Notes under the pieces: generated by a model
What the model saw: only the letters and a program-made list of their open reading frames with translations
Database searches by the model: none
Told to the model about the DNA's origin: nothing
Part shown: positions 6,542-30,456 of the stretch, one piece after another
Position numbering within the stretch: the first letter of the stretch is position 1
Layout of the letters: every line of letters starts with the position of its first letter
Program-made: the position numbers and the translations under genes
NCBI GenBank assembly: GCA_017430145.1
Contig: JAFRNP010000034.1
Coordinates: forward strand, 1 to 33,507
Direction of reading: 5' to 3'
From: Clostridia bacterium
GTDB taxonomy: Bacteria; Bacillota; Clostridia; Oscillospirales; Acutalibacteraceae
Length of the DNA: 33,507 nucleotides

Positions 6542-7429
6542 TCAGTACGGGATCTTCCCCGCCGCCACCTCGGCAAGATGCGCGCCGTAGCCTGAGCTGG
6601 CGTATTTTTCAGCAGACGCGATCAGCTCGGCCTTTGAGATCCAGCCCTTGCGGTAAGCGATCTCCTCCGGCGCCGCGATCACAGCGTCCTGCCGGGCGTG
6701 CAGCATCTGAACAAAGGCGGACGCCTGCGCCAGGCTGTCGGCGGTCCCCACGTCCATCCAGGTGTAGCCGCGGCCCAGCAGCCGCACGCTGAGTCTGCCC
6801 TGCCGCAGATACAATTGGTTGAGAGACGTGATCTCCAGCTCGTTCCTTGCAGACGGACGCAGCTCCGACGCAAGGTCGCTGACCCCCGGCGGATAAAAAT
6901 ACAGGCCGGTGACCGCGTAATTGCTTTTCGGGGCTTTCGGTTTTTCTTCGATATCGGCCACCTTCCCGTCCTGGTCAAGCGCCAGCACGCCGAAGCGTCC
7001 GGGGTCGTTGACGTAGCAGCCAAAAACGACCGCGCGGTCCTTTTCCGCCGCCTCCCGGCCGGCGTCCTCCAGAAGCTGCGTCATCCCGTTCCCGTAAAAC
7101 AGGTTGTCGCCCAGGATCAGGCAGCAGGCGTCGTCCCCGATAAACGGTCTGCCCAGCAAAAACGCCTGCGCGATCCCGTCGGGCGAAGGCTGCGCAAGAT
7201 AGGTGATCCGCACGCCGAAAGCTTCCCCGTCGCCCAGCAGCCGCCGGTAATCCGGCAGCGAAGCGGGGGTGGAGATCAGCAGGATCTCCCGGATCCCCGC
7301 CAGCAAAAGGGTGGAGAGGGGATAATAGATCATCGGTTTATCGTAAACCGGCAGCAGATGCTTGGAAACGACGTTCGTCATCGGCTGCAGACGCGTCCCG
7401 TTTCCGCCGGCAAGCAGGATACCTTTCAT
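6542..7429 (-). CDS. rfbA: Glucose-1-phosphate thymidylyltransferase
   Basis: Makes dTDP-glucose from glucose-1-phosphate and dTTP, the entry step to dTDP-sugars. The 295-residue protein is full length. The nucleotide-binding loop is GGNGTRL at 8-14 (Asn where Ser is usual), followed by SKHLLPVYDKPMIYYPLSTL, and later LGDNLFYG, IEEKPK and NELEIT, all typical of RmlA. It starts 10 bases after the MFS gene stop and the two are probably co-transcribed. The product feeds RfbB and the FdtA/FdtB-like pair encoded on the other strand. Confidence 0.96.
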   Translation of the reverse strand: MKGILLAGGNGTRLQPMTNVVSKHLLPVYDKPMIYYPLSTLLLAGIREILLISTPASLPDYRRLLGDGEAFGVRITYLAQPSPDGIAQAFLLGRPFIGDDACCLILGDNLFYGNGMTQLLEDAGREAAEKDRAVVFGCYVNDPGRFGVLALDQDGKVADIEEKPKAPKSNYAVTGLYFYPPGVSDLASELRPSARNELEITSLNQLYLRQGRLSVRLLGRGYTWMDVGTADSLAQASAFVQMLHARQDAVIAAPEEIAYRKGWISKAELIASAEKYASSGYGAHLAEVAAGKIPY

Positions 7430-13121: not shown

Positions 13122-13571
13122 ATGTTTGAGATCATCCCTTTCAAAAATGCACACTGCACTTCTTACGATCCCTTTAAGGCCTTTGAGGACCTGGAAAGAA
13201 GCTTTTTCTCCCCCTTTGACGCCTCGCGCCGGGGTGCGCTTGCCCCCTTCCGTACGGACGTCAGAGACGCCGACGGCGAATACGTTCTGGAAGCGGATCT
13301 GCCCGGCTTTGCCAAAGAGGACATCAACATCGACGTGGAGGGCGATTACCTGACCATCAAAGCGCAGCGCCATTCGGAGCACGAGGATAAGGACAGGAAA
13401 AAGAATTACGTCCGCTGCGAGCGCTCCTACGGCTCATACGCCAGAAGCTTTGACATTTCGGGCGTGGACGCCGATAAGATCAGCGCAAAATATGAAAACG
13501 GCGTGCTGACCCTGCACTTGCCGAAAGTGGAACCGGCGGCGCCCGCCGCCCGCAGACTGGAGATCCAGTAA
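13122..13571 (+). CDS. hsp20: Hsp20/alpha-crystallin family small heat-shock protein
   Basis: A 149-residue ATP-independent holdase that binds unfolding proteins in the cytoplasm. After a variable N-terminal region (DPFKAFEDLERSFFSPF) comes the alpha-crystallin domain: FRTDVRDADGEYVLEADLPG near 43-62, KEDINIDVEGDYLTIKAQR, then the conserved GVLTLHLPK near 128-136. The C-terminal tail is short and lacks an obvious I-x-I motif apart from LEIQ at the end. The ATG is preceded by GGAGGT at good spacing. The upstream CIRCE points to HrcA control, a class I heat-shock pattern usually seen with groES and dnaK. It has its own terminator. Confidence 0.95.
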   Translation: MFEIIPFKNAHCTSYDPFKAFEDLERSFFSPFDASRRGALAPFRTDVRDADGEYVLEADLPGFAKEDINIDVEGDYLTIKAQRHSEHEDKDRKKNYVRCERSYGSYARSFDISGVDADKISAKYENGVLTLHLPKVEPAAPAARRLEIQ

Positions 13572-14058: not shown

Positions 14059-14088
14059 GAGAAAAACCGACGGCAAAGCCGTCGGTTT
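14059..14088 (-). terminator. Terminator of the four-peptide operon
   Basis: A perfect 11-bp stem, AAACCGACGGC/GCCGTCGGTTT (14064-14074, 14078-14088) with a three-base loop. On the - strand it runs straight into TTTTTC. It lies 29 bases after the last peptide gene. Confidence 0.9.
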
Positions 14089-14116: not shown

Positions 14117-14254
14117 TCAAGCGGTGGTCTCTTCGTCTGCAGCGTCTTCGCCGCCGAAATCAAAGTTAATGCCGAGCGTCTCCAGGAACTTTGCAAATGC
14201 GTCAAACAGCATCTGAAGGAACTGGATCAGGGCAGTAAAATCAAACGTACTCAT
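14117..14254 (-). CDS. Small peptide P4 of the four-peptide operon
   Basis: A 45-residue peptide. Core helix ALIQFLQMLFDAFAKFLETL (about residues 8-27), rich in Phe and Leu at helical spacing, then GINFDFGG and an acidic tail ending EETTA. Net charge is strongly negative, with a single Lys. AGGAGG-type GGAGGTG lies seven bases before the ATG, so it is probably translated. No signal peptide, Cys, or double-glycine leader is visible. It is the last of four similar genes and is followed by the terminator. It matches no family I know. Possible roles include an amphipathic membrane-active or self-assembling peptide, a secretion helper, or a structural peptide; none is demonstrated. Confidence 0.75.
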   Translation of the reverse strand: MSTFDFTALIQFLQMLFDAFAKFLETLGINFDFGGEDAADEETTA

Positions 14255-14298
14255 CAATATTCACCTCCGTTTATGTGAAATAGAAACTATACTGTTGA

Positions 14299-14466
14299 TT
14301 ATTCGCCTTCGGCGGTTTCGCCTTCCTGACCGACAAGATCTGCCAGATTGCCCAGCGTGCCGATCATCGGGATGGTATTGCCGAGGAACATCGCGAGCGC
14401 TGCAAACAGGCTCTTTAAGAACTCAACAAATCCTTCCATGACCTTTTTCATATCCAGATTTTCCAC
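14299..14466 (-). CDS. Small peptide P3 of the four-peptide operon (GTG start)
   Basis: A 55-residue peptide starting at GTG, with GAGGTG seven bases upstream. Residues 1-10 carry MKK at 6-8; the core GFVEFLKSLFAALAMFLG (12-29) is an amphipathic to hydrophobic helix. The tail ends QEGETAEGE. Shares with its neighbours the Phe/Leu helix, a Leu-Gly turn after it (FLGN) and a Glu/Thr-rich C-terminus. The gap to P4 is 44 bases. No known family recognised. Confidence 0.75.
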   Translation of the reverse strand: MENLDMKKVMEGFVEFLKSLFAALAMFLGNTIPMIGTLGNLADLVGQEGETAEGE

Positions 14467-14504
14467 TTGTTGTCACCTCTTTATCTGATAGTATTATGTA
14501 TTGC

Positions 14505-14660
14505 TTATTCGCCTTCGGTCGTCATTTCTTCCCCAGGCTCCGTCTCCTCTTCCTTGAACAGGTTGATATCAATGCTCTTGAAGAAGGCGATGATATAGCC
14601 GAAGAAGATCCTGATGATCTCGATCCACTTGTCAATGGAATAAGAAAAATCAATCGTCAT
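14505..14660 (-). CDS. Small peptide P2 of the four-peptide operon
   Basis: A 51-residue peptide. Core KWIEIIRIFFGYIIAFFKSI (11-30), very rich in Ile and Phe, then DINLF and an acidic tail ending EEMTTEGE. GAGGTG lies eight bases before the ATG. The ending TTEGE resembles TAEGE of P3, and INLF resembles GINF of P4, which suggests the genes are diverged paralogues. The helix could lie on or in a membrane. No cognate transporter or immunity gene is adjacent. Confidence 0.75.
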   Translation of the reverse strand: MTIDFSYSIDKWIEIIRIFFGYIIAFFKSIDINLFKEEETEPGEEMTTEGE

Positions 14661-14683
14661 ATCCGTTTCACCTCTTTTATCTG

Positions 14684-14848
14684 TTATGCGCCCGTATCTT
14701 CGGTCGTTGCGGTCGTGGGATAGTCATAATCGCCCGGCTCCGGCAGGACCAGGATACCAAGCCACTCCATTACCTGCTTGAACATATTCATAAGCTTTCT
14801 GAATACGTCCAGTAATTCCTCCAGCGTAAAAGGCAGAATCGACTGCAT
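14684..14848 (-). CDS. Small peptide P1, first gene of the four-peptide operon
   Basis: A 54-residue peptide. Core LEELLDVFRKLMNMFKQVME (9-28) is amphipathic with Met, Phe and Leu on one face, followed by WLGILVLPEPGDYDYP and a Thr/Asp-rich tail ending TTEDTGA. GAGGTG lies six bases before the ATG. It is the promoter-proximal gene, 23 bases before P2. Same plan as P2-P4: a helix, a short turn, and an acidic tail. Not recognised as a known toxin, bacteriocin or phenol-soluble modulin; the negative net charge argues against classical cationic bacteriocins. Confidence 0.75.
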   Translation of the reverse strand: MQSILPFTLEELLDVFRKLMNMFKQVMEWLGILVLPEPGDYDYPTTATTEDTGA

Positions 14849-14938: not shown

Positions 14939-15043
14939 TTTTCTTTCTTTTAAAGTTTACAGGTTGTTCACAAAACTTTCACAAGAATACAGAAGAGCCC
15001 CTGTTTTCTGTTGTTTATTTGATAAATTTACACAACAATTGTG

Positions 15044-15964
15044 TTACGGGAGCTGCCAGATGCGGATATAATCGATCACATATTCCCCGACAGGATCCTC
15101 GGCGGTGCGCGTCACGGTGGAAGCCTTGGAGGGCGAGCAAAGGGTAACGATCAGCTCTTCGGGCACCTCGCTGACGCCCTTCGCATACGAGGTCCTGACG
15201 GCCTCGACGCCGTTGATGTACCAGATATATTCCGTATCGGTCCAGAGGATGCCGTAGGTGTTGTACTCCTCCACGGGATCCTTCTGCGCGGCATAGTCTC
15301 CGAAATTGATGCCGTCGATCTCGGGGTCGTCGTCCGCGCCGTTGAGCCATACGGCGGGCGTGATGCCGACCACTCTGTCGCCGCGCGTGCTCTCGGAGAA
15401 CCATTCGATATCGATCTCACAGCCGCCGGGGCCGCCCTGAGAGACCTCGGGGATGTACTCGCCGTAAACGGACAGCCAGAAAGCGCTCCAGAAATCGCCG
15501 CGCTTCTGGTTGGGATACGCCTTGCAGCGAATCTCAAAATATCCCTTGCAGTACTTCTCGTACAGGCGCATGTCGCCGGTGTACCAGCCCTTGCCCTGCG
15601 GCCCGTCTTTATACTCGGCGGTAATGGTCAGGTTCCCGTCCTTTACGGTCATCGCAGACGGATCGTAAAACCCGGTGGAAGAGCCGGAGGTCGTGACGTT
15701 CCAGACGTCGGTGTTCAGTTCATCGCCGTCAAAGTTGTCCTCAAACACGATCTCGTAACCGGTCAGGTCCAGCTCCGGCCCGCGGGGCGTACGTGGCGTA
15801 TCCCAGAACGAGGCGGAGAAAAGTTCAACGATCGCAAGCAAAGTCGCGCCGATCTTTGTGAAAGGGACCTTGAAGGACAGAAGCTGTTTGAGCAGGTCCG
15901 TGCCGGCGTAAAACGCCATCTTCTGCCGGGTGGCAAATTTCAGTAACGTAAGAATCGCTTCCAT
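15044..15964 (-). CDS. GH16 family beta-glucanase with atypical N-terminus
   Basis: A 306-residue glycoside hydrolase family 16 enzyme acting on beta-glucans or related galactans. The jelly-roll catalytic motif is EIDIE (Glu183 nucleophile, Asp185, Glu187 acid/base), the form without the extra residue, as in lichenases. Other family features are FEDNFDG at 74-80, DMRLYEKYCKGYFEIRCK and the C-terminal YVIDYIRIWQ. The first 60 residues are unusual: no classical signal peptide, but Leu/Phe-rich stretches such as LLKQLLSFKVPFTKIGATLL, with Glu47 inside the most hydrophobic part. The ATG at 15964 is chosen because AAAGGA is nine bases upstream; an in-frame ATG at 15982 is the alternative. The helix style recalls the four small peptides encoded downstream. 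Confidence 0.85.
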   Translation of the reverse strand: MEAILTLLKFATRQKMAFYAGTDLLKQLLSFKVPFTKIGATLLAIVELFSASFWDTPRTPRGPELDLTGYEIVFEDNFDGDELNTDVWNVTTSGSSTGFYDPSAMTVKDGNLTITAEYKDGPQGKGWYTGDMRLYEKYCKGYFEIRCKAYPNQKRGDFWSAFWLSVYGEYIPEVSQGGPGGCEIDIEWFSESTRGDRVVGITPAVWLNGADDDPEIDGINFGDYAAQKDPVEEYNTYGILWTDTEYIWYINGVEAVRTSYAKGVSEVPEELIVTLCSPSKASTVTRTAEDPVGEYVIDYIRIWQLP

Positions 15965-30267: not shown

Positions 30268-30294
30268 AATGAATTCACCTGCCTTCAAAAAATA

Positions 30295-30427
30295 ATACAG
30301 CCCTTCCGCCGGGACCGACGAAAGGGCATAAAAATCGTAACGATATCGCGATTTTTTGCTTCATTCCTCGGCAGGCGGTAAAACTTACGCATAAAATGCA
30401 CCTGCTGTCTTTAGAACAGCAATAGGT
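30295..30427 (-). promoter_or_regulatory. Ribosomal protein L10 leader with attenuator
   Basis: On the - strand the leader shows CTGTTCTAAAGACAG, then GCAGGTG paired to CGCCTGC followed by CGAGG, the conserved L10-L12 binding kink-turn region of Firmicutes leaders. Two hairpins follow: AAAAATCG/CGATTTTT (30330-30356) and GCCCTT/AAGGGC (30300-30327), the latter followed by a U-rich stretch, which would stop transcription just before rplJ. The L10(L12)4 complex is expected to bind and favour termination. Confidence 0.8.
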
Positions 30428-30456
30428 ATTCTATCATACCGATCGCCCCTTGTCAA
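30428..30456 (-). promoter_or_regulatory. Internal promoter of rplJ-rplL
   Basis: TTGACA (30451-30456), 17 bases, TAGAAT (30428-30433) on the - strand, directly after rplA. Gives the L10 leader its own start site. Confidence 0.88.

Follow-up and report, generated by a model that had tools for sequence, protein, structure and literature searches.

Four consecutive small genes (P1-P4) of a Clostridia genome encode short peptides which are under purifying selection and are conserved as coding sequences in related genomes. The peptides are assigned to no known family, neither to phenol-soluble modulins (PSMs) nor to leaderless bacteriocins, and among the genomes sampled the set is restricted to one family of Clostridia. 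The window, meaning the whole stretch of DNA that was analysed, is a complete contig of 33.5 kb (33,507 nucleotides; G000:C3) in an assembly of 3.03 Mb and 180 contigs. In the reading which we prefer, at a probability of roughly 40%, P1-P4 are leaderless anionic amphipathic helices that would be membrane- or surface-active together and would work like PSMs.

Gene layout and conservation

The original prediction that the four small consecutive frames are real holds: their coordinates (Table 1) were confirmed, the frames recur in the same order in 19 of the 26 genomes of the genus, and the expected ribosome-binding sites (GAGGTG) lie 6, 8, 7 and 7 bases before the starts of P1, P2, P3 and P4. 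The single promoter and the strong operon terminator were found as predicted; the 64-nt stretch of the terminator folds at -24.2 kcal/mol (z = -4.03, with 0 of 200 shuffles as stable). The consensus scan placed the P1 promoter one base off and did not list the terminator. What had to be given up is the notion of a single operon: each genome has several peptide operons with related promoters, and P1-P4 is one of these. The glycosidase which adjoins P1 has a long and hydrophobic-looking N-terminal region of ~60 residues ahead of its catalytic domain. The Rfam search gave no family near the P1-P4 operon; its sole match was the ribosomal protein L10 leader (RF00557) at 30285-30432 on the minus strand, ahead of rplJ-rplL.

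Table 1. Positions of the features described in the text (window coordinates unless a relative's locus is named)
Feature	Position	Strand	Description
P1	14848-14684	minus	54 aa; amphipathic helix with conserved WLGILVLPE-like core, acidic tail
P2	14660-14505	minus	51 aa; DFSxS..W amphipathic helix, acidic tail
P3	14466-14299	minus	55 aa, GTG start; helix followed by a variable stretch and acidic tail
P4	14254-14117	minus	45 aa; FDFTALIxFLxxLFxAF helix, acidic tail
Promoter	14919-14891	minus	-35 TTGTAC, N17 spacer, extended -10 TGC-TATTAT
Upstream box	14952-14972	minus	TGTGAAC-N4-TGTAAACTTT; conserved; 7-bp direct repeat with 11-bp period
Intrinsic terminator	14064-14088	minus	operon end; 11-pair stem, 3-base loop, T run
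Family-16 glycosidase gene	15982-15044	minus	Pfam E 2.7e-13; adjoins P1 upstream
Hsp20 gene	13122-13571	opposite to P1-P4	past the operon terminator
Recurring HTH, IrrE-like and CPFF neighbours	L053:568-1120, L045:10816-11172	minus	relatives' loci
T1 peptides with AGAGG/AGIG-like stretch	L268 7618-7806		reverse
T1 peptides with AGAGG/AGIG-like stretch	L270 204-422		
T1 peptides with AGAGG/AGIG-like stretch	L271 2432-2620		reverse

Searched alone, P4 has matches in 16 of 59 genomes (the window's own included), every one of them in the window's genus; with profiles, P4 is found in 19 and P1 in 20 of the 26 genus genomes. The order P1-P2-P3-P4, which the original prediction had proposed to check in relatives, is intact in all 19 P4-bearing genomes as read from frame lists that demanded a ribosome-binding-like site. 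In G002, the twentieth genome with P1, there are P0 (a fifth family, described below), P1, P2 and a P3-like gene, with no P4 recognised. Over the four genes jointly, 171 genome pairs were compared, and the 63 pairs with dS < 2 gave a median dN/dS of 0.35. The five pairs of lowest dS gave 0.27, 0.27, 0.53, 0.22 and 0.20, which is 0.20-0.27 in four of them and 0.53 in the fifth, and not the value near one that had been named beforehand as speaking against the frames. The helix is the conserved part of each peptide and the tails vary freely between species; the endings (TTEGE, TAEGE and others) that had been thought related are indeed alike in composition, but they are not conserved.

Thirteen P1-bearing relatives have names; all are metagenome-assembled genomes with the labels Clostridia, Ruminococcaceae or Oscillospiraceae, and the record titles give a buffalo or goat origin for five of them. 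Candidate P4 relatives beyond the family (2 of 295 genomes in the order, 8 of 291 in the class, both including the window's own) were rejected as noise, the matches being short or marginal.

Promoter, upstream box and further peptide operons

When the P1 promoter was aligned with those of 18 relatives, the TTG of the -35 element and TG.TA...T of the -10 element were invariant, and the 19 P1 upstream regions align nearly without gaps through the box, the -35 TTG and the extended -10 element TGTGNTANNAT. The sequence TGTGNACNNNNTGTAAACTTT, with up to two mismatches allowed, has a single match across the 3.03-Mb assembly. The repeats of the box are 11 bp apart, unlike those of AgrA-type sites, which have a different spacing. 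The promoter is sigma-A-like and vegetative-looking, so expression would be expected in the growth phase rather than in the forespore.

The fifth family, P0, is present in 19 of the 26 genus genomes and sits just upstream of the operon in some of them; in the window's genome it lies on another contig (G000:C18). The upstream layout of 17 P0 genes is related to that of P1, except that the box is nearer by roughly one helical turn than in the P1 genes (five second-in-line P0 genes without a box were left out of this alignment). P0 stands behind spoVAE in eight genomes (four in a blastp cluster, three by motif, one by eye), and one member of the blastp cluster matches the SpoVAE model at 1.2e-43. 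A secreted-type lipase follows the P0 genes in four loci, three of them in one blastp cluster and one by eye, and one of the three clustered lipases was matched by Pfam/NCBIfam. At L129:8328-10712 (plus strand) spoVAE is followed by two P0 peptides and then by a secreted-type lipase (Lip_C), and L130 and L133 are similar.

These features bear on a rather unlikely explanation, by which the helices never leave the cell and instead attach to the producer's own membrane at its inner leaflet, or form bundles, shaping or protecting the membrane with their tails facing the cytoplasm. The vegetative-type promoter, whose core resembles the promoters of ribosomal genes (genes named by eye), would suit such a role, as would the position of P0 behind spoVAE and the lack of a leader and of a recurring exporter; copy number, tails and sequences vary widely, however, and the neighbourhoods differ, which would be unusual for a core structural part.

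Promoter models were used for searching of further operons. The first, R1, describes the P0 promoters by sequence alone; applied to six genomes, it reached, beyond its training sites, a second four-gene operon, Q1-Q4, in the window's genome, G012 and G013, and one Q-type gene together with one P0-like gene in G005; it also matched ribosomal and unrelated genes. In G014, which is without P1-P4, R1 (E 0.003) pointed to a single helical peptide of 57 aa whose acidic tail is rich in TTE (L173, reverse strand, 7169-7342). With R1, the P1 promoter of the window reaches just 8.0 bits (E 0.38), and it is absent from the two matches which the broader model, R3, has in this genome. The box part of the P0 model also has a weak, partial match (8 bits, E 0.4) at 15023-15046 on the minus strand, between the glycosidase and P1.

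R3 was built from 33 sites, one of which (G002) showed no peptide. At E ≤ 1e-5 it gave 54 matches in 25 of the 26 genus genomes, 29 of them training sites. A match was taken to pass when a frame of 22-75 aa started within 260 bases of it, had a ribosome-binding-like site and encoded a peptide with net charge ≤ 0 and moment ≥ 0.45, thresholds that were fixed after the peptides had been seen. By this rule 20 of the 25 untrained genus matches pass, two fail (G015:C13 and G005:C42) and three are too near a contig end, with ≤ 177 bases left and one of the three not fetched.

Beyond the genus, R3 at E ≤ 1e-4 matched in 79 of 200 family genomes, from which the loci of 30 matches were examined, 27 of them outside the genus. 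Eleven of these 27 match the model from its upstream end; three are training sites, and of the other eight, five pass (G033, G210, G221, G155 and G108) and three fail. The core-promoter-only matches outside the genus gave 0 of 16 passing (two had ≤ 308 bases left) and were set aside as generic strong promoters. In the draw from the order, R3 at E ≤ 1e-5 matched 22 of 245 genomes (the window's own included), and 0 of 23 non-self loci beyond the family pass, two of them with ≤ 167 bases left; this control mainly concerns core promoters, as only 4 of the 23 loci match from the upstream end. As far as sampled, the peptides and the box travel together within one family.

The promoter search also led to a third operon type, T, whose products are again acidic and amphipathic. 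Of the 26 genus genomes, 25 have one or more of P0, P1-P4, Q and T, 21 through P0 or P1 and four (G001, G003, G010 and G024) through Q or T, the exception being G020, which is 58% complete. In the window's genome eleven such peptides were seen, namely P1-P4, P0, Q1-Q4 and two near-identical tandem twins. The twins (32-35 aa; L127:9642-9934, plus strand) lie ~1 kb past P0 on G000:C18, are amphipathic-looking with acidic ends, and have no promoter-model match upstream. From the alignments and promoter models, the P0, P1, Q and T operons appear to share a related promoter and box, and we infer that P0, P1-P4, Q and T may be co-regulated by one regulator. Candidates for this role would be a response regulator of the OmpR/PhoB type, which the 11-bp repeat may suggest, and the Cro/C1-type HTH protein encoded close to many of the operons.

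Varying tails, several paralogues per genome and related promoters are what would be expected if the peptides were released as signals or modulators that neighbours or the host can sense, with the variety providing specificity. It is the helix and not the tail that is conserved, and this explanation is considered distinctly improbable.

Peptide properties, neighbouring genes and known systems

The amphipathic helix and acidic tail of the original prediction are borne out by calculation. Net charges of P1, P2, P3 and P4 in the window are -6, -8, -6 and -8, and the means are -6.4, -6.6, -7.1 and -3.8 over 19 peptides each and -3.6 for P0 (n = 22), with a maximum of 0. The maximal 18-residue helical moment has means of 0.52-0.62 for P1-P4 (0.52-0.64 with P0) against 0.31-0.37 in shuffles, and over the 98 P0-P4 peptides the periodicity peaks at 100 degrees. 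Strong amphipathicity and negative or zero charge were also found in 43 chosen peptides of Q, T and other genera. None of the 98 P0-P4 peptides has a cysteine; some peptide listings passed over Cys-containing frames, and an unfiltered recheck found one Cys each in a Q-type peptide of G007 and in a G092 peptide. By eye, no signal peptide or leader was seen in P1-P4. From these properties it is plausible that P1-P4 are membrane-associated or self-assembling. Codon adaptation is ordinary (0.604, equalled or exceeded by 32 of 84 gene windows), and thus does not support very high expression.

The profiles of P1, P3, P4 and P0 are related pairwise with hhalign probabilities of 89-94%, scores which amphipathic composition can inflate, and the comparison of P2 with P3 was not significant (24%). 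P1, P3, P4 and P0 likely descend from one helix ancestor. The P1-P4 families gave no match in Pfam (E ≤ 1), NCBIfam (E ≤ 10) or PHROGs (E ≤ 0.1), so the "undescribed peptide family" of the original prediction still stands and the clear match to a known bacteriocin or toxin family that would have overturned it was not seen in these collections. No PHROG was found for P0 and one twin peptide at E ≤ 0.1, no P1 relative in viral contigs and phages, and no P4 in plasmids; these searches, which covered P2 and P3 in PHROGs only, gave no sign that the peptides are phage or plasmid genes. Solved structures gave weak matches only, for three profiles, the best being a designed repeat protein (E 0.0088). 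The peptides are undescribed in the literature covered, from which most subscription papers and all preprints were excepted.

Small size and a membrane-active look are the only points for the peptides being small hydrophobic toxins of type I toxin-antitoxin pairs. Eleven of them in one genome, the lack of an Rfam family near the operon, and an acidic amphipathic character instead of one transmembrane span make this hardly probable at all.

No gene is common to all P1-P4 neighbourhoods. A motif search within 3.5 kb of P4 in 19 loci found a Cys-containing "CPFF" protein in 9, an HTH gene in 9 and an IrrE-like gene in 7; at least one of the three is near 13 of the 19 operons and none is in the window, and the counts are lower bounds as several contigs end near the operon. 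Example neighbours match Cro/C1-type HTH PF13443 (E 9.6e-11) and IrrE-like Peptidase_M78 (E 9.9e-5), and the CPFF protein matched no family. These genes might act as regulators of the operon or have a protective role for the cell, or their presence might be mere synteny. No recurring exporter or transporter was found beside the operons, ABC-type clusters occurring in at most 4 of 27 loci by crude longest-ORF calling.

Such neighbours matter for the possibility that P1-P4 are a multi-peptide leaderless bacteriocin directed against competitors, the CPFF protein near 9 of 19 operons being a candidate immunity factor. Three- and four-peptide leaderless bacteriocins exist according to the part of PMC6131525 available, and aureocin A70, garvicin KS and the cereucins, as given there, have three or four small leaderless peptides from one operon, much as P1-P4 do. 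Unlike them, P1-P4 are anionic and without a recurring transporter: among the rows seen of that source, the multi-peptide and L50/MR10 bacteriocins carry +4 to +7 (aureocin A70 +4, +4, +5, +4), and secretion and immunity genes are given as confirmed for aureocin A70. Three T1 peptides, in G003, G007 and G019, show by eye an AGAGG/AGIG-like stretch before the helix. We take this stretch to resemble the Gly-Gly leader of class II bacteriocins, and it could also speak for a bacteriocin; no such stretch was seen by eye in P0-P4 or Q, however, and searches of T1 against Pfam/NCBIfam at E ≤ 1 returned no leader family, only weak unrelated matches. On balance a bacteriocin is unlikely. At L219 (another family; reverse strand, 1843-2320) two Cys-containing small proteins with a leader-like MSLNGG start are perhaps bacteriocin-like.

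PSMs are nearer. The exporter of PSMs is encoded at a separate locus. In the part of PMC4244807 available, PSMs are amphipathic helical peptides of ~21-44 aa from multi-peptide operons, and plain peptide operons are described for them in staphylococci, with which the lack of a recurring exporter here agrees. P1-P4 likewise are leaderless helices from multi-peptide operons, with several operons under related control elements and no recurring exporter, and because of these shared features their anatomy is closest to PSMs. They differ from the staphylococcal PSMs (alpha and beta operons) by their acidic C-terminal tails and their Clostridial host, and no family model of Pfam or NCBIfam matches P1-P4 above its cut-off. 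The nearest approach is a P4-like peptide of another genus against the NCBIfam model of PSM epsilon (E 0.018; 14.8 bits against a cut-off of 33), which covers 8 residues. The contrast that the original prediction had drawn was thus overdrawn for PSMs, which in the source portion available are themselves amphipathic and come from multi-peptide operons; the difference in charge from bacteriocins stands.

Proposed function and significance

Secreted surface-active mixtures are favoured in our analysis over internal membrane peptides, bacteriocins, signals and toxin-antitoxin pairs. The four helices, made without a signal peptide, would leave the cell through a general exporter whose gene lies elsewhere, and would act outside as surfactant or membrane-active peptide mixtures, with effects such as spreading, the loosening or structuring of aggregates on plant fibre, or the wetting of lipids. 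Owing to their acidic tails, the helices may stay in solution and do the producing cell less damage. P1-P4 would be one branch of a set of P0, P1-P4, Q1-Q4 and T with a common promoter type and upstream box. Secretion, surface activity and cooperation of the peptides are what we infer from conserved order, purifying selection, amphipathicity, charge, the 20 of 25 R3 matches, the lack of a recurring exporter, the lipase after P0 and the weak PSM epsilon match. Ordinary codon adaptation, the weak match of the window's own promoter and the 8-residue extent of the PSM match count against this PSM-like reading, and neither a signal peptide nor a dedicated exporter was found. The operons are also not simply stand-alone, because a regulatory-looking module is near many of them.

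A wider and more tentative proposal, which we judge somewhat improbable, is a dedicated regulon of one family of gut Clostridia in which up to about ten different leaderless anionic helices per cell co-assemble as hetero-oligomers or extracellular peptide material and give a membrane coat or surfactant matrix; this would be a new class without descent from PSMs.

Gene finders readily overlook small peptides without a leader; in this genus 25 of 26 genomes have a set of them, in which P1-P4 are unmatched by any family model searched. With the promoter model, more members can be sought even where the peptides have no sequence similarity to one another. Should the peptides prove to be surfactants, Clostridia of a gut community would have a counterpart of PSMs, and should the peptides be structural, they would represent a new hetero-oligomeric membrane system.
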